The translations under genes were made by a program, and so were the position numbers. The notes under the pieces were generated by a model that was given only the letters and a program-made list of their open reading frames with translations, was not told the origin of the DNA and ran no database searches. DNA of 46,063 nt from Candidatus Moraniibacteriota bacterium (GTDB lineage: Bacteria > Patescibacteriota > Minisyncoccia > Moranbacterales > UBA2206). This document shows, in pieces, positions 33,971-42,853 of this stretch. The first letter of the stretch is position 1, and each line of letters opens with the position of its first letter. Where the stretch lies: positions 1 to 46,063 of the forward strand of contig JAUXSK010000031.1 in assembly GCA_030679995.1 (NCBI GenBank), given 5' to 3'.

Positions 33971-34042
33971 TAAATCGGAAGCAGAAAGGCCGGCTTGATT
34001 CCTGAATTTTTAGAAATAATTTATTTTTTAATCTACAAATCT

Positions 34043-35554
34043 ATGGCTACTACCCCGGAGAACATATCACCTAGAGCGGAAAAACTGGAAAATCAGACTG
34101 CGGCCGTGCCGGTTTCTGCGAGCGCTGAAACCCAAAACTTTTCCAGCGGGCTGCCCGAGAAAAAAGGCATCGCCAGCCGGCTATATGAAGGCCTCTACAA
34201 GATTCCCGGCATAAACCGGATCGTCGGAAAAATGGAAATCGCTTACAACCAATTTTGGGCGGACAAGAATGAGAAAAAAGCCGCTCAATCCAAGGGTGAA
34301 ATGGATGTCGATGATATGCAAATCGGGGCTTTGGATAAACTGAGGGCGCAAATTGAATCCAATATCGAAAATTTCAAACAAAGGAAGATTCCCGGTGTAG
34401 AAACGTTCCAATTGGAATTGAAAAAGTTAGACCAGCAGAAGACGGATATGTTGAACAAAAAAGACAAAAAGCAATCGGAATTCGAAGCGCGGGATAATAA
34501 AGTGAAATCGTATACCAATAAACGGGACGCGATCGCCGACAGGCTTATCGGACGCTATGATGAAAAACTTCATCCGATGGAAAAGGAATTGGAGCAGTTA
34601 CAAACCTGCAAGGACCGGTTGGATCTGGAAATCGCGGCGATGGGAGCGGATCATGACGCATTGCTGATTGAGTTAACGGAAACGGAAAAACAAAAAATGG
34701 AAATGGAGGAATCTTTGAGAGTGACTAGGCGTTCTCCGCGGGAAATCAAGAAATTCGTAAAAATATTCGAGGATCAATTGACGCGTGGCCGGGAAAAAAT
34801 CCGATCGGAACGGGAAGCTATGGCCCGCCGGAAAGACGAGATAAACAAGAAAATCGCTAAAGTCGACGTGAAAGCCAATCCGTACCGCGACAAGCGGGAG
34901 GAATTCGCGCGTGTGAAAGCGGGCCGTCCGCTCAAGATGGAAGTGAAAACCAGGGAAAGAGGCAAGGTGTTTGCGGGGGAAGAAGCCGTAAGCGCGCATA
35001 CGAGAAAAGAATCCGTTGAGGATGGAATCGAGGAGTGGTCAGACGTCAAAGTGCTGGTTTCCGGCTGGAATAATAATATGAAAGGTAAATACCAGTCAAA
35101 GATGGTTATTGACCAAGCCGATTTTATGCGGGTGACCAAATTGCGGACAGATAAGCTGGATAAGAGGAATTTTAAGAAACTTCTCGGTCTGTATTACAAA
35201 CTCAAAAAAATTCAGGTGGGTATGGATTTGAACGCGGCTGTCGATGCTTTTTATGAAGAAAATGAAAATAAATCAAGGGGAGGGGCTGATGAAAAGAAAC
35301 CGAAAGGGGAGGATAATGATGAAGAGAGATTTGATCAGGAAGTAGAAAGGCGGGAAAATAAGAAGTCAAAAGGTGAAGATAAGGATGAAGAGAGATTCGA
35401 TCAGGAAGTCGCCCGCCGGCAAGCGGCAAAAAATACGGCGGCCGGGGTTGCTTCACAACAATCAGCTAAAGGGGATGATAATGATGAAGAAAGGCTTGAT
35501 CAAGAAGTCGCCCGCCGGCAAGCGGCAAAAAAGGCAGGGAATAGGACGACATAA
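34043..35554 (+). CDS. Coiled-coil protein, paralog A, with C-terminal tandem repeats
   Basis: This 503-residue protein is unknown. Residues of about 28-71 (SSGLPEKKGIASRLYEGLYK...) are nearly identical to the 36006 protein. A long coiled coil follows to about 270, then a second conserved block (KANPYRDKREEFARVKAGRP) and a paralog-specific globular part (WSDVKVLVSGWNNNMKG...). The C-terminus holds three copies of a charged unit of the type KGEDNDEERFDQEVERR. No signal peptide or membrane helix is seen. I chose ATG 34043; upstream codons look non-coding. It probably acts as a filament or scaffold protein, which is inference. Confidence 0.75.
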   Translation: MATTPENISPRAEKLENQTAAVPVSASAETQNFSSGLPEKKGIASRLYEGLYKIPGINRIVGKMEIAYNQFWADKNEKKAAQSKGEMDVDDMQIGALDKLRAQIESNIENFKQRKIPGVETFQLELKKLDQQKTDMLNKKDKKQSEFEARDNKVKSYTNKRDAIADRLIGRYDEKLHPMEKELEQLQTCKDRLDLEIAAMGADHDALLIELTETEKQKMEMEESLRVTRRSPREIKKFVKIFEDQLTRGREKIRSEREAMARRKDEINKKIAKVDVKANPYRDKREEFARVKAGRPLKMEVKTRERGKVFAGEEAVSAHTRKESVEDGIEEWSDVKVLVSGWNNNMKGKYQSKMVIDQADFMRVTKLRTDKLDKRNFKKLLGLYYKLKKIQVGMDLNAAVDAFYEENENKSRGGADEKKPKGEDNDEERFDQEVERRENKKSKGEDKDEERFDQEVARRQAAKNTAAGVASQQSAKGDDNDEERLDQEVARRQAAKKAGNRTT

Positions 35555-36005: not shown

Positions 36006-38369
36006 ATGGCTGTTGCGCCGGACAAAACATCATCCATTGCTGAAACCCAAAACTTTTCCAGCGGGCTGCCCGAGAAAAAAGGCATCGCCAGCCGGCTATA
36101 TGAAGGTCTATACAAGATTCCCGGCATAAACCGGATCGTCGGAAAAATGGAAATCGCTTACAACCAGTTTCGGGCAGATAAGAATGAAAAAAAATCCGCC
36201 AAATTTAAAAGCGAGATGGACGTTGATGATTTGAGTGTGAACGCACTGGATCGATCCAAGGCGCAAATAGAAGCGACCATCGAAACTTTAAAGCGGCAGG
36301 GTATGCCGGGCACGGAATCATTGCAAATAAAACTGAAAGAAATAGACCGGCAGAAAATGGAGATATTAAGCAAAAAAGACAAAAAACAATCGAAGTTCGA
36401 AGCGAAGGATAACAAGGTGAAACTATATGTCAACCACAGGGACGCAATCACCAATAGGCTTATTGGGCGTTATGATGAAAAACTTTATCCAATGGAAAAG
36501 GAATTGGAAGGGTTGCAAGCCTGCAAACGTCGGGCGGATTTGGAGGTGGCGATGATGAATGCGGAGCACGAGGCGTCATTGATTGAAATGCAGGAAATTG
36601 AGCAACAAAAAGCGCAACTCGAAGAGGCTTACAGATCAATCGGATATTCGGACAAAAAAATCAAGAAGGACGTGGCAATAAAAATATTGGCGGAACAATT
36701 AGCGCAAAACAGGAAGAGAATTGGGATGGAAAATGAAGTTATGGCAAAAAGGCAGGATGTTATAGACAGGAAAATCGCCAAAGTCGATGCAAAAGCCAAT
36801 CCGTACCGCGACAAGCGGGAGGAATTCGCGCGCGTGAAAGCGGGCCGGCCCGTAGATATGAAAGTCAAAACCAGGGAAAGAAGCCAGGTGTTTGCGGGGG
36901 AAGAAACCATAATCGGGCATACGAGACAAGAAAGGAGAGATGAACCAATGATAGGTGATGAGACGGTAGATGGCTCTGTGGAGGCGCAAAACGAATCTCA
37001 GCAACAGGCAGAGCCCCAACAGCCGACAACTTCTTCTTTAAATATGCCTCCTATAACCCCTTCGCAAAAAAATATAGAAACGACGGAGGAGGAAACAGTC
37101 TCTACGAATGATCCGCTTAGGGCGGCGGCTTGGCATACGATCAGGAAAATGGAGGATTTGAAGATGAAATATTCCGATTTGAACGGCGCGACGGAAAAAG
37201 AAAGGGAGGAAAAATTCTTGGAGTTGACGCGCCGATTGTGGAATGAATTTACGGTACACGGAATTACTAAAAACGGATCAATGGATTTAATAAGGGAGTC
37301 TGATTTGGACGGCGAAAGCTGGTTGAAACTTTTGGAGCTTGCCGGTTTTTCAATAGACAGGGATAAGGTTAATTTTATAAAATCAGGAACAACCAGAGAG
37401 AGCGGCGTAATAGGCGATACTTCCGAAAAACAAAGTGGTGTTATTGCTGAGGATAAAGGAAAAAAGCTTACCATGGATCATCATGGCCCTGAATCGGATC
37501 GGACGACTTCGGCTACGAAGTTTGCTTATGAACTATTAACAACGCTGAATCTTTTGAAAAAGGAGGATTATCTGGATAAATTTGTTGATTTTGTTACAGC
37601 TTGTGATAATCTTGAATTTTCTGCTGATACATATGGAACGGTTTATAAAAATTATGCGAAAAATCTATACGGATTGCGTCAAAAAATTAAGTTGGAGGAT
37701 ATATTGCAAATGTTTAAGGATGGCATAGATCCGGCTCAGGAAATTCCTGAGGATCGTTTGAAGAGTATGGAATATGAAGATTCTGCGAGCAAAAGCAGTG
37801 ATCCTGCGAAAATGAAGAAAAAATCTCTCTTTGAATTTTCTGAAGAATTCCGGAATAATATTGACGGGACAGATGAGACGATTAAGAAAATGGAAGATTT
37901 CGTGTTGGATACGGGAGGTAGTCGTTTTGGCAAGGTACTGATTGACACTGGCAGGATTGTAGGTAAAGGCAAGTGGATAGCGAAAGTGTATGACAATAAC
38001 CATTCTGCCCAGCTAGCTGCTTTCGCCAGTGGTTATGGAGCTTATTTAAAATGGTCGCAGAAAAACAATGGATTTGTCATTTTTACCAAGGATAAAAAAA
38101 TTGATGAGGATACAGTGCCGGGCGGATTCGGACAGGGATTTAATGTGAGGGGTCATATGTGGATGAAACCAGAGTTTGATGACGATACGCAAAAAGTAGT
38201 GCCTTTAACGGTTAAGTTGGAAGATATTTTGGCCAAATTGGCAGGCCAAAGCCCGGCTGATTTTAAGATGGATGATAAGCTAAAAAAAGCTTTTGATAAA
38301 GCGACTAAAAATAAATCAAAACCGGCATTTAAACGCAAATCTAAGCCTAAGCCCCAGCCAGCCCCGTAA
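36006..38369 (+). CDS. Coiled-coil protein, paralog B, with DHH-like C-terminal half
   Basis: This 787-residue protein shares its N-terminal 300 residues with the 34043 protein: conserved block at about 12-55, coiled coil to about 255, second block KANPYRDKREEFARVKAGRP at 263-282. After a Gln/Pro/Thr-rich linker (about 315-365) comes a different C-terminal half. It contains LTMDHHGPESDRTTSATKFAYELL (Asp491-His493) followed by DKFVDFVTACDNLEF, which recalls motif III and the following Asp of DHH-family phosphoesterases. A later GGFGQGFNVRGHMW (706-719) could match the Gly-rich DHHA1 part. The usual motif I is not visible, so it may be inactive or remote. The tail is Lys/Pro-rich. Confidence 0.7.
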   Translation: MAVAPDKTSSIAETQNFSSGLPEKKGIASRLYEGLYKIPGINRIVGKMEIAYNQFRADKNEKKSAKFKSEMDVDDLSVNALDRSKAQIEATIETLKRQGMPGTESLQIKLKEIDRQKMEILSKKDKKQSKFEAKDNKVKLYVNHRDAITNRLIGRYDEKLYPMEKELEGLQACKRRADLEVAMMNAEHEASLIEMQEIEQQKAQLEEAYRSIGYSDKKIKKDVAIKILAEQLAQNRKRIGMENEVMAKRQDVIDRKIAKVDAKANPYRDKREEFARVKAGRPVDMKVKTRERSQVFAGEETIIGHTRQERRDEPMIGDETVDGSVEAQNESQQQAEPQQPTTSSLNMPPITPSQKNIETTEEETVSTNDPLRAAAWHTIRKMEDLKMKYSDLNGATEKEREEKFLELTRRLWNEFTVHGITKNGSMDLIRESDLDGESWLKLLELAGFSIDRDKVNFIKSGTTRESGVIGDTSEKQSGVIAEDKGKKLTMDHHGPESDRTTSATKFAYELLTTLNLLKKEDYLDKFVDFVTACDNLEFSADTYGTVYKNYAKNLYGLRQKIKLEDILQMFKDGIDPAQEIPEDRLKSMEYEDSASKSSDPAKMKKKSLFEFSEEFRNNIDGTDETIKKMEDFVLDTGGSRFGKVLIDTGRIVGKGKWIAKVYDNNHSAQLAAFASGYGAYLKWSQKNNGFVIFTKDKKIDEDTVPGGFGQGFNVRGHMWMKPEFDDDTQKVVPLTVKLEDILAKLAGQSPADFKMDDKLKKAFDKATKNKSKPAFKRKSKPKPQPAP

Positions 38370-38474: not shown

Positions 38475-40853
38475 ATGTATCTCAAAAAGCTCGAAATTTC
38501 AGGGTTTAAATCTTTTGCCAACCGGACGATGTTGGATTTTTCGATGTCGCATGACGGCGTGCGGGGGATTACGGCGGTGGTGGGGCCTAATGGTTCCGGC
38601 AAGTCCAATATCGCTGATTCTTTGCGGTGGGTGATGGGCGAGCAGTCGATGAAAAATTTGCGCGGCAAGAAATCGGAAGATATCATCTTTGCCGGATCGG
38701 GCAAGAAAGCCAGGCTGGGCAGCGCGCAGGTGACTTTGTTTTTCGACAATGCCGACAAGCGCATCCCGTTGGAATTCGAGGAAGTTTCCATCACGCGCAA
38801 GATCTATCGCAGCGGGGAGGGGGAATATCTGATTAACGGTTCGCGGGCCAGGTTGCAGGACGTGGTGGATATTTTGGCCAAGGCGGGCATCGGCAAAGAA
38901 AGCTACTCGATCATCAACCAGGGTATGGCGGATGCCGTTTTGAACGCGACGCCGTTTGACCGCCGCTCCATTATCGAGGAGGCGGCCGGCGTGAAACAAT
39001 ATCAAATCAAGAAGGAGCGGTCGTTGCGCAAGCTGGAATCGACGCGGGAAAATTTGGACAAGGCCAAAAGTTTGGCGGAAGAAATCAAACCGCATTTGAA
39101 AATGTTGAAACGGCAGGCGGAGAAGGCCGCCCAGAGCGAAGGGGTGAGTGCGGAATTACGGGAAAAGCAGACAAGTTTGTATACGTATCTGTGGCAGAAT
39201 TTCCAACAGGAAAAAGGCAAATTCAACGAGGCTAAAGAGGAGATGGGGCGCACGATGATGAATCTCCAGCGGGAAGTGGACAGATTGGCCGACGAATTGA
39301 ACAAAGAATCTAGGGTCGATACGGTGAACACGCATCTGGCCGAACTGGAGAAACAGAAAAACGAAAAACGCGGCAAGCTCAACCAGCTGGACCGGGATTT
39401 GATCGTGACGGAAGGGCGCATCGAAATTGAAAAAGAGAAGCAGAAAAATATCGAGATGATCGAGGAGATCAAAGTCCAAAGCATCCCAGTGGATCTGCAT
39501 TATGTGAGAAAGGGCATCGAGGAAATCCGCGCGGACCAGGAAAGGTTGATCGCGCAGATAGAAAGCGCGGAGAGTATGGACGACTTGCAGGACATCAAAG
39601 AATTTGCCCGTTCAATCCAGCAGCGGCTGTTTGAATTGAAGACGGATATCGAGAGCGGTAAAAAAGAGCCTGCCGCCAGGACTGAAACCGTTGTTAAGCC
39701 GAAACCGGTCGCGGCAGCCGATTCAGCCGCGATTATCGAATACAAGGAAAAAACCATCGCTCTCCGGGCGGAAATACAAAAAATCGACGGTGAAATCAGG
39801 GAGTTGGAGAAGATGATTTCGGAGGAAATCCAGTCTGACAGGCAGAAACGCCAGCGGTTTTTCGAGGTGGAGCGGGATTTCCGCGGCAAACAGGAAACTT
39901 TGAACAAGCTGAAAGACCAATTCAATGAATCCAAAATCGCCCTGGCGCGCGTGGAGGTGCACGAGGAAGATTTGCGTGCGGATGTCTTGCGGGAATTGCG
40001 CTTGAGCGTGGAAGAATTGGCGCCGATCCGAAACGCGGACCAGTCTGCGGTTACCGGAAATGATAATGAGGCTTCGCGGATAGATCGTGGACAGTTGGAA
40101 CGGGATATCGCCAAATTGAAAATCCAGATGGAGCAGATCGGAGGCATCGACCCGCTGGTGGTGGAGGAATATGAGGAGACCAATAAACGCTTTGAATTTT
40201 TGACAAAAGAATCGGAAGACCTGGAGAATGCCATCGTGGCTTTGCGGGAAATCATCAGGGAGATGGATCAGAAAATCAGTGGCGAATTTTCCAAGACTTT
40301 CGAGGAAATCAATAAGGAATTCACTAAATATTTCCGCATCATTTTCGGCGGCGGCAACGCCAGCCTTAAAAAAGTGGAAGTGCGCAAGCGGTCGTATAAA
40401 TCGAAAAACGAAGGGGAGGACGCATCTGGCGAGGTTGAGGATGAAGCGGGCGAAGACGGAGTTGATGGGGGCAGGGAAGAAAAGCCGGAAATCGGAATTG
40501 ACATCGCCGCTTCGCCTCCAGGTAAGAAAATCAGCAATTTGTCGATGCTGTCCGGCGGGGAGCGTTCACTGACTTCGCTGGCACTACTGTTTGCTATTAT
40601 TTCCCATAATCCGCCGCCGTTCGCCGTCTTGGATGAGGTGGAAGCGGCTTTGGATGAAGCCAATTCCAAGCGTTTCGGCCGCATCATCAATGAGCTTTCC
40701 GGCAGTACGCAGTTCGTCATCATAACCCATAACCGCGAAACGATGCGCCAGGCCTCGATGCTCTATGGCGTGACGATGGGGGATGAGGGAATCTCGAAAC
40801 TGCTTTCCGTGCGTCTGGACCAAGTGGGGCAGGGCGGTCGGATCTTGCAGTAG
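38475..40853 (+). CDS. smc: Short SMC-family chromosome segregation ATPase without hinge
   Basis: SMC proteins are ATP-driven DNA-folding machines. This 792-residue protein has both ATPase halves: Walker A GPNGSGKSNIADSLRW (37-52), a Q-loop region, signature LSMLSGGERSLT (689-700), Walker B FAVLDEVEAALDEAN (716-730) and VIITHNRETM. Two coiled-coil arms (about 175-395 and 420-605) are short. Between them lies only a Lys/Pro/Ala-rich linker (about 395-420, KKEPAARTETVVKPKP), where a typical SMC of about 1180 residues has a 150-residue hinge domain. An acidic insert (641-671) also occurs near the C-terminal ATPase half. I chose ATG 38475, which begins the family motif YLKKLEISGFKSFA. Confidence 0.88.
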   Translation: MYLKKLEISGFKSFANRTMLDFSMSHDGVRGITAVVGPNGSGKSNIADSLRWVMGEQSMKNLRGKKSEDIIFAGSGKKARLGSAQVTLFFDNADKRIPLEFEEVSITRKIYRSGEGEYLINGSRARLQDVVDILAKAGIGKESYSIINQGMADAVLNATPFDRRSIIEEAAGVKQYQIKKERSLRKLESTRENLDKAKSLAEEIKPHLKMLKRQAEKAAQSEGVSAELREKQTSLYTYLWQNFQQEKGKFNEAKEEMGRTMMNLQREVDRLADELNKESRVDTVNTHLAELEKQKNEKRGKLNQLDRDLIVTEGRIEIEKEKQKNIEMIEEIKVQSIPVDLHYVRKGIEEIRADQERLIAQIESAESMDDLQDIKEFARSIQQRLFELKTDIESGKKEPAARTETVVKPKPVAAADSAAIIEYKEKTIALRAEIQKIDGEIRELEKMISEEIQSDRQKRQRFFEVERDFRGKQETLNKLKDQFNESKIALARVEVHEEDLRADVLRELRLSVEELAPIRNADQSAVTGNDNEASRIDRGQLERDIAKLKIQMEQIGGIDPLVVEEYEETNKRFEFLTKESEDLENAIVALREIIREMDQKISGEFSKTFEEINKEFTKYFRIIFGGGNASLKKVEVRKRSYKSKNEGEDASGEVEDEAGEDGVDGGREEKPEIGIDIAASPPGKKISNLSMLSGGERSLTSLALLFAIISHNPPPFAVLDEVEAALDEANSKRFGRIINELSGSTQFVIITHNRETMRQASMLYGVTMGDEGISKLLSVRLDQVGQGGRILQ

Positions 40854-40964: not shown

Positions 40965-41318
40965 ATGTTAACCATAAGATTCGCGCGAGTTGGAAAAAGA
41001 AACAAGGCTCAATTTAAAATAATGCTCCAGGAGCACACGATCGCTCCAGGCGGCCGTCATATCGAGGTTTTAGGAAGTTATAATCCGCATTCGAAGGAGG
41101 CTGTTCTGAAAGAAGACCGGATCAAATATTGGGTTTCTAAAGGCGCGCAGATGTCCGATACGGCTGCGAATCTTTTTATGAAAAAAGGCGTTATCGAAGG
41201 CACAAAGAGAAAGGTGAAGGTGCCAGCGAAAAAAGTCGAAGAAGTTGTGGCGGAAGCGGCTCCGGTTGCTGAAGCGCCCAAGGCGGAGGTACCGGCTGAA
41301 GAGGTCAAAGCTGAATAG
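40965..41318 (+). CDS. rpsP: 30S ribosomal protein S16
   Basis: S16 is a small-subunit assembly protein. The 117-residue protein has LTIRFARVGKRNKAQFKIML and GGRHIEVLGSYNPHSKE followed by RIKYWVSKGAQMSDTAANLF. It ends in an Ala/Glu/Lys/Val-rich tail of about 35 residues (after about residue 82), which makes it longer than the 80-90-residue E. coli form. No SD is visible. Confidence 0.95.
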   Translation: MLTIRFARVGKRNKAQFKIMLQEHTIAPGGRHIEVLGSYNPHSKEAVLKEDRIKYWVSKGAQMSDTAANLFMKKGVIEGTKRKVKVPAKKVEEVVAEAAPVAEAPKAEVPAEEVKAE

Positions 41319-42469: not shown

Positions 42470-42507
42470 GTTTTCAATCGATTAAGAATTATGGATTAAA
42501 TTAAGCA

Positions 42508-42549
42508 CCTGCCTGCCGGTAGGCAGGGATTCCGGGTCAAGCCCGGAAT
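42508..42549. repeat. REP-like palindrome pair
   Basis: CCTGCCT/AGGCAGG (42508-42514 with 42521-42527) is followed at once by ATTCCGGG/CCCGGAAT (42529-42536 with 42542-42549) with a TCAAG loop and a trailing GACA. The second hairpin belongs to the same family as 21942 and 22013. A partial GCCCGGAATGG copy follows near 42560. Confidence 0.65.
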
Positions 42550-42645
42550 GACAATGATGAGCCCGGAATGGCAATAGCGGATACAAAATGACAATGATGA
42601 GACTGAAATGATAAAGTTGTTTATTGTTAGTGTAAATTTTTTTGG

Positions 42646-42707
42646 AAAAAATAAAAGCCCTGCTGGTGTTAATCTCGATGATTCGAGATAATTTCCACCA
42701 GCCGGGC
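42646..42707 (-). terminator. Long-stem terminator of the 38-residue micro-ORF unit
   Basis: On the minus strand GCCC/GGGC, GCTGGTG/CACCAGC and ATCTCGA/TCGAGAT stack into one long interrupted stem, followed by TTTTATTTTTT. A second perfect hairpin GGGGATG/CATCCCC (42717-42736) lies between it and the micro-ORF stop. Confidence 0.9.
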
Positions 42708-42736
42708 GATTATGTTGGGGATGTCTTTTCATCCCC

Positions 42737-42853
42737 CTATTTTTTTCCATGTATGGCGCAGAACTCGTAAACGAGTTCTTTCCGGCCTGCCAGATCAATT
42801 CTGAAATAAATCGGGCTAAGCATTAGGATACGAATCGCTTCACGTTTCGACAT
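42737..42853 (-). CDS. Candidate 38-residue small protein
   Basis: On the minus strand TAGGAGGA lies 5 nt before an ATG that opens 38 codons (starting MSKREAIRILMLSPIYF) to TAG. The peptide is basic and helical with a plausible amphipathic LAGRKELVYEFCAIHG end. A strong promoter, an internal attenuator-like hairpin and a strong terminator frame it, so it looks like a genuine small gene of the cassette-like class. I do not recognise it. Confidence 0.55.
   Translation of the reverse strand: MSKREAIRILMLSPIYFRIDLAGRKELVYEFCAIHGKK

Follow-up and report, generated by a model that had tools for sequence, protein, structure and literature searches.

A hinge-less condensin-type SMC protein of Patescibacteria with a putative dimerising two-helix module at the tip of its arms

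The window, a stretch of 46,063 nucleotides from Candidatus Moraniibacteriota bacterium, an ultra-small bacterium (Moranbacteria), carries an open reading frame (ORF) of 792 residues which encodes a true condensin-type SMC: the ATPase head is intact and the joint and both arms are present, but there is no hinge. In these chromosome-organising motors the hinge is regarded as an invariable end, where the two SMCs of every pair are joined and where DNA enters. On balance we lean slightly towards the reading that the protein belongs to an SMC-ScpAB condensin in which an apical two-helix hairpin (residues 336-394) and a flexible linker have replaced the hinge, the hairpins putatively pairing two subunits. 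The wider proposition, that Patescibacteria swapped the near-universal SMC hinge for an unrelated apical two-helix module which putatively dimerises SMC, is rated an even chance. The features of the gene and its locus are shown in Table 1.

Table 1. Features of the smc gene and its conserved neighbour; positions are those of the window and residue numbers those of the 792-residue protein.
Feature	Position	Strand	Evidence
smc, hinge-less condensin-type SMC, 792 aa	38475..40853	+	TIGR02168 652 bits vs cutoff 567; same form in 55/55 genomes of the order
Walker A, residues 37-44 GPNGSGKS	38583..38606	+	Invariant in 43-sequence alignment
N-terminal coiled-coil arm, residues 174-335, with head-proximal joint	38994..39479	+	AlphaFold2 helices; fold match 5xei
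Apical two-helix module, residues 336-394 (helix A 341-363, turn, helix B 368-394), at the hinge's place	39480..39656	+	AlphaFold2, conservation, homologous tips, equal arms
Disordered linker rich in Lys/Pro/Ala, residues 395-418, differing in sequence and length	39657..39728	+	pLDDT < 50; least conserved
C-terminal arm, residues 419-624, with C half of joint	39729..40346	+	AlphaFold2
Acidic disordered loop between two head strands, residues 637-671	40383..40487	+	pLDDT < 50 at 640-668; variable acidic loop in relatives
ABC signature LSGGER, residues 692-697	40548..40565	+	Invariant in 43-sequence alignment
Walker B and D-loop, residues 715-730 PFAVLDEVEAALDEAN	40617..40664	+	43-sequence alignment
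rpsP (ribosomal protein S16), conserved neighbour 3' of smc	40965..41318	+	PF00886; marks orthologous smc locus

The 792 residues are counted from an ATG, and the open frame begins at a GTG 13 codons further upstream. In an NCBIfam search the window protein exceeded the cutoff of TIGR02168, and a Pfam search matched PF02463 (SMC_N) at both protein ends, the motifs of the ABC-type head being divided between the two termini. Walker A (G37-S44), the signature (L692 SGGE) and Walker B (P715-E721) were invariant in the alignment of 43 sequences, in which identity fell as low as 35%. Matches by sequence in the PDB were Smc heads of Bacillus-group and archaeal origin; the closest PDB fold was 5xei, an Smc head with coiled coil and joint, and long antiparallel coiled-coil arms with a head-proximal joint were found both by this fold match and by AlphaFold2. 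The host genome (∼1 Mb, completeness estimate 99%) yielded a single full SMC and encodes the kleisin ScpA (∼236 aa) and the kite protein ScpB (∼182 aa), both of ordinary size. A PF06470 hinge between the arms was found neither by Pfam, even with the E threshold relaxed to 1, nor by a dedicated hinge profile or AlphaFold2, and the protein is therefore classed as a hinge-less SMC variant rather than a canonical SMC. An earlier note on this DNA had described a true SMC with both ATPase halves intact and the hinge missing; the family score, the invariant motifs and the lack of a PF06470 match or hinge fold uphold that description.

The same form is shared by the relatives, as the note had suggested checking. 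SMC was found in all 55 genomes of the order, representing 41 genera, and nearly all copies were full length at about 750-800 aa. No PF06470 match was found anywhere in any of these 55 genomes, while the same search was positive in 10 of 14 control genomes, and the possibility of a hinge encoded by a separate gene was rejected on this result.

Whole-protein AlphaFold2 (single chain, mean pLDDT 77) predicted an N-arm at residues 174-327, short helices at 342-363 and 369-393, a disordered linker (pLDDT < 50 at 393-416) and a C-arm at 419-624, with only helices and no folded hinge between 174 and 624. When a tip fragment (residues 296-484; 72 sequences, single chain) was modelled, the two helices were placed at 341-363 and 368-394 with pLDDT 85-88, disorder was seen around 400-413 and the C-arm started at 418; the pTM values of the AlphaFold models were modest (0.52 and 0.46). 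The module comprises ∼55 residues lying directly before the fast-evolving linker. Within the order it is nearly fixed or conservatively replaced at V339, D340, Y343, I351, L358, L371, I374, L385 and L388, and its hydrophobic residues are arranged mainly as a single stripe on each helix, beside which lie conserved polar or charged positions (Q355, K375, R379 and K394-K397). Conservation along the protein is lowest in the linker, where mean identity within the order is 0.33 over residues 401-420. The Lys/Pro/Ala-rich linker which the earlier note had placed at 395-420 is real and disordered, but its statement that the arms are joined by this linker instead of a hinge was incomplete, because the linker comes after a conserved apical helical hairpin.

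Arm lengths were counted from the joint as published for B. subtilis Smc (residues 188-253 and 922-1011; PMC5526789). In 98 hinge-less proteins the distance from joint to module on the N side and from module to joint on the C side differed by a mean of -0.6 aa (sd 5.7, r = 0.99), although this symmetry, like some of the homology figures below, was partly guided by tip boundaries that were set by eye near the arm midpoint outside the Moranbacteria. With arms of equal length on either side, the module forms an apical hairpin at the hinge's place rather than extending one arm; a plain continuation of the N-arm was ruled out, since the N-arm would then be ∼55 residues longer than the C-arm. Around the same apical module the hinge-less SMCs fall into some three arm-length classes (roughly 62-100, 131-146 and 207-241 residues). 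These recall the multimodal arm lengths of other SMCs (PMC5344682), and the differing arms around one module offer a natural series for the arm-length question.

Hinge-less SMCs throughout the phylum carry homologous modules at their arm tips, as sequence comparisons indicate. By eye, a helix-turn-helix of similar length preceded the linker in every hinge-less family looked at. An unselected whole-protein scan with a Moranbacteria tip profile located the tips of L068 (27.6 bits), L061 (15.4 bits) and L064, while hinge-bearing proteins scored a mean of 2.8 bits; several hinge-less families matched the tip profile weakly. When the tip of each family was compared, profile against profile, with the entire arms of the other families, the best match lay at the partner's tip in 32 of 42 comparisons, which were not mutually independent (best E 4e-5). 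A tip profile made without Moranbacteria found the tip in 53 of the 55 Moranbacteria and matched residues 338-392 in the window protein with 30 bits, against at most 10.6 bits for hinged proteins. Among 36 held-out SMCs, some of which belong to families used in the profile, the best match fell in the tip zone in 23, against 5.4 expected (p = 4e-11), none of them with a hinge. The parts of this evidence that are independent are the unselected scan, the held-out scan and, for the window protein, the boundaries given by AlphaFold. Foldseek returned nothing for the tip fold at E < 0.001, and the tip profile gave weak coiled-coil matches only, none convincing, against PDB sequences and Pfam.

ScpA and ScpB were present in all 55 genomes of the order, and ParB in 17 of the 19 relatives checked. 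The distribution across the phylum was assessed in 380 genomes spread over Patescibacteria, with a true SMC defined by E < 1e-40. ScpA was encoded in 130 of these, together with SMC in 121 (Fisher p = 6e-81), and accompanied the hinge-less SMC in 110 of 115 genomes. The best explanation is that the window SMC is the cell's only condensin-type SMC and would work with ScpA and ScpB as in ordinary bacteria. The order smc-rpsP is common to the relatives, distant ones and the hinge-bearing Magasanikbacteria among them, and the gene is therefore assigned to the orthologous smc locus and not to a paralogue. Only ribosomal genes lie 3' of smc, and the 5' ORFs are not retained among relatives. Two of the latter are large, one of 787 aa (window 36006-38369) and one of 519 aa (33995-35554); neither matched a Pfam family above cutoff, and homologues with 30-35% identity lie upstream of smc in L012 and L094 and are not generally kept beside it. 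The 787-aa ORF was ruled out as an SMC partner, as it does not adjoin smc in relatives.

The proposed mechanism retains the head, joint, arms and ScpA/ScpB, while the hinge would have been replaced by the apical two-helix hairpin followed by the flexible linker. The hairpins of two subunits may come together at the tip, forming for instance a four-helix bundle, and the paired tips, ATP-driven head engagement and the ScpA bridge would then close a ring, so that a smaller SMC motor could still entrap or extrude DNA. B. subtilis grows normally when its Smc hinge is swapped for the zinc hook of Rad50, an unrelated structure (PMC5344682). Pairing of the hairpins is plausible because they sit exactly at the hinge's place and are kept while the linker varies, and because this swap works in B. 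subtilis. We infer that the hairpin is probably a new, putative dimerisation contact; of the options offered by the earlier note, that the protein dimerises another way, acts as a monomer or uses a partner, the apical module makes the first the most likely. The pattern of one hydrophobic stripe per helix counts against pairing, as it would also be expected of a lone two-helix hairpin.

In the chief rival reading, nothing but heads, arms and ScpA keeps the pair together. The hairpin would then merely cap the coiled coil, and ATP-engaged heads, arm-arm contacts and the ScpA bridge would keep two SMCs together, which agrees with the single main stripe per helix, with the universal presence of ScpA and ScpB in the order, and with the statement that arm-arm contacts probably add to the dimerisation of hinge-less B. 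subtilis Smc (PMC5526789). However, a cap alone would not require ∼55 residues to be conserved as a module at the exact apex over three arm-length classes, and arms shorter than those of B. subtilis provide fewer arm contacts; we regard this rival as rather unlikely. The hinges of known SMCs bind DNA too, and the hairpin with the basic stretch that follows it (KGKK) could have taken over another hinge role by binding a partner protein or DNA. The conserved polar and charged residues beside the hydrophobic stripe would suit such a function, but the smc locus has no conserved extra neighbour (upstream ORFs are not kept and only ribosomal genes lie downstream), ScpA and ScpB are normal in size and the KGKK stretch is not retained in all families, which makes binding of this kind improbable.

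That a hinge is there and too diverged to detect, or that hinge-coding DNA was lost through a frameshift or assembly error, is very improbable. Diverged domains in coiled-coil proteins can escape sequence searches, but the AlphaFold2 model of residues 174-624 contains neither strands nor a folded domain, the tip resembles no part of a hinge, and the form is fixed over 41 genera; the hinge fold, frameshift and assembly error that the earlier note had named as refuting its reading are excluded on these grounds, as is a hinge remnant in the tip. Moreover, the hinge profile, built from hinge-bearing Patescibacteria relatives, divides hinge-bearing and hinge-less SMCs cleanly: it scored at least 178 bits in the full hinge-bearing relatives listed and 101 bits in B. 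velezensis Smc, but no more than about 1 bit in hinge-less SMCs. The chance that the protein is instead another ABC-type coiled-coil ATPase is negligible, for although Rad50/SbcC, RecN and the archaeal ASRP likewise have long coiled coils without a PF06470 hinge and give weak NCBIfam matches, the ASRP, Rad50 and RecN models reached at most 68 bits, each far under its own cutoff (RecN, rejected as TIGR00634, 25 bits against 408), compared with 652 bits for TIGR02168, the CxxC zinc hook that marks the Rad50/SbcC apex is ruled out in a protein with no cysteine, and co-occurrence with ScpA and the kept smc-rpsP synteny speak against a non-SMC ATPase.

A true SMC was found in 126 of the 380 Patescibacteria genomes, about 115 without a detectable hinge and 11 with one, leaving about 254 with no SMC. 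PF06470 was detected in 14 of the 380, in 11 of them within SMC-sized ORFs of 960-1079 aa. Condensin-type SMC is absent altogether from some two thirds of the sampled genomes, and SMC and ScpA are lost together. GTDB contigs showed the hinge-less form also in Uhrbacteria, Doudnabacteria, Falkowbacteria and further groups, and the hinge-bearing form in Magasanikbacteria-type genomes, whose loci (L046-L056 and L155-L169) appear to make up a hinge-bearing clade among hinge-less ones with rpsP still as neighbour. A quick tree of head domains nested the hinge-bearing Magasanikbacteria clade within the hinge-less SMCs (fewest changes, 3), and monophyly of the hinge-less form was not rejected (p-AU 0.057). 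The nested position would mean that the hinge was probably lost more than once or regained. The shared tip module would favour a single origin of the hinge-less form, and the Magasanikbacteria-type clade may have regained its hinge by recombination.

Compared with bacterial Smc-ScpAB (TIGR02168; B. subtilis Smc), the system has a like head, joint and antiparallel arms, ScpA/ScpB, ParB in most relatives checked and the smc-rpsP locus, and differs in having no PF06470 hinge, a two-helix module and linker at the apex, arms of about half the length and a longer acidic head loop. The Magasanikbacteria-type SMC, from the same phylum, with a closely related head and the rpsP neighbour, has a canonical hinge and no tip hairpin. 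Rad50/SbcC also carries a small apical device in the hinge's place, its zinc hook, but the window SMC has no CxxC or any cysteine and the head families differ. Constructs of B. subtilis Smc without a hinge or mutated in it, as far as they are described where cited in PMC5526789, similarly consist of arms and heads without a working hinge; those are laboratory made, whereas the hinge-less form here is natural and widespread. Sussfeld et al. 2025 (PMC12153180) described, from metagenomes, a cluster of SMC homologues without a hinge in marine Actinomycetes, and drew no conclusion on what these do. These have an SMC head and arms, have lost the hinge and possess no zinc hook, a combination which the window protein shares; they belong to another phylum, and their hinge is described simply as missing (PMC12153180). 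Neither ScpA or kleisin nor Patescibacteria turned up when the text of that paper was searched. A search of the open-access literature brought up no description of Patescibacteria losing the hinge, nor of an apical hairpin.

A natural, phylum-wide replacement of the hinge tests which parts loop extrusion and DNA entrapment need, and it agrees with the finding in B. subtilis that a dimerisation domain of another fold can be substituted. The small two-helix tip module may serve as an alternative means of joining the two SMCs of a pair. If true, this would add a further apex type to the SMC family, beside the hinge and the zinc hook, in most SMC-bearing members of a very large bacterial group.

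The earlier note had also remarked on an unusual acidic insert in the head, at residues 641-671, and the insert was confirmed as a region of low pLDDT. A loop longer than that of Bacillus occurs at this site in most Patescibacteria SMCs, and, because hinge-bearing ones are included, the insert is not linked to hinge loss.

Palindromic repeats were observed in frame within the smc tip linker of relatives (L014, L025, L010 and L016), while the window copy has none. These consist of a repeat of ∼40 bp, CCTGCCCGC...GCAGGCGGGG, and of GTAGAGACGCCCCATCGGGACGTCTC, with copies elsewhere (L033:2859-2900; L124:165-184), and resemble Rickettsia palindromic elements. On the minus strand of the window, downstream of rplL, a short ORF at 42496-42798 encodes the peptide VIPGLTRNPCLPAGR, which is typical of translated dispersed repeats.
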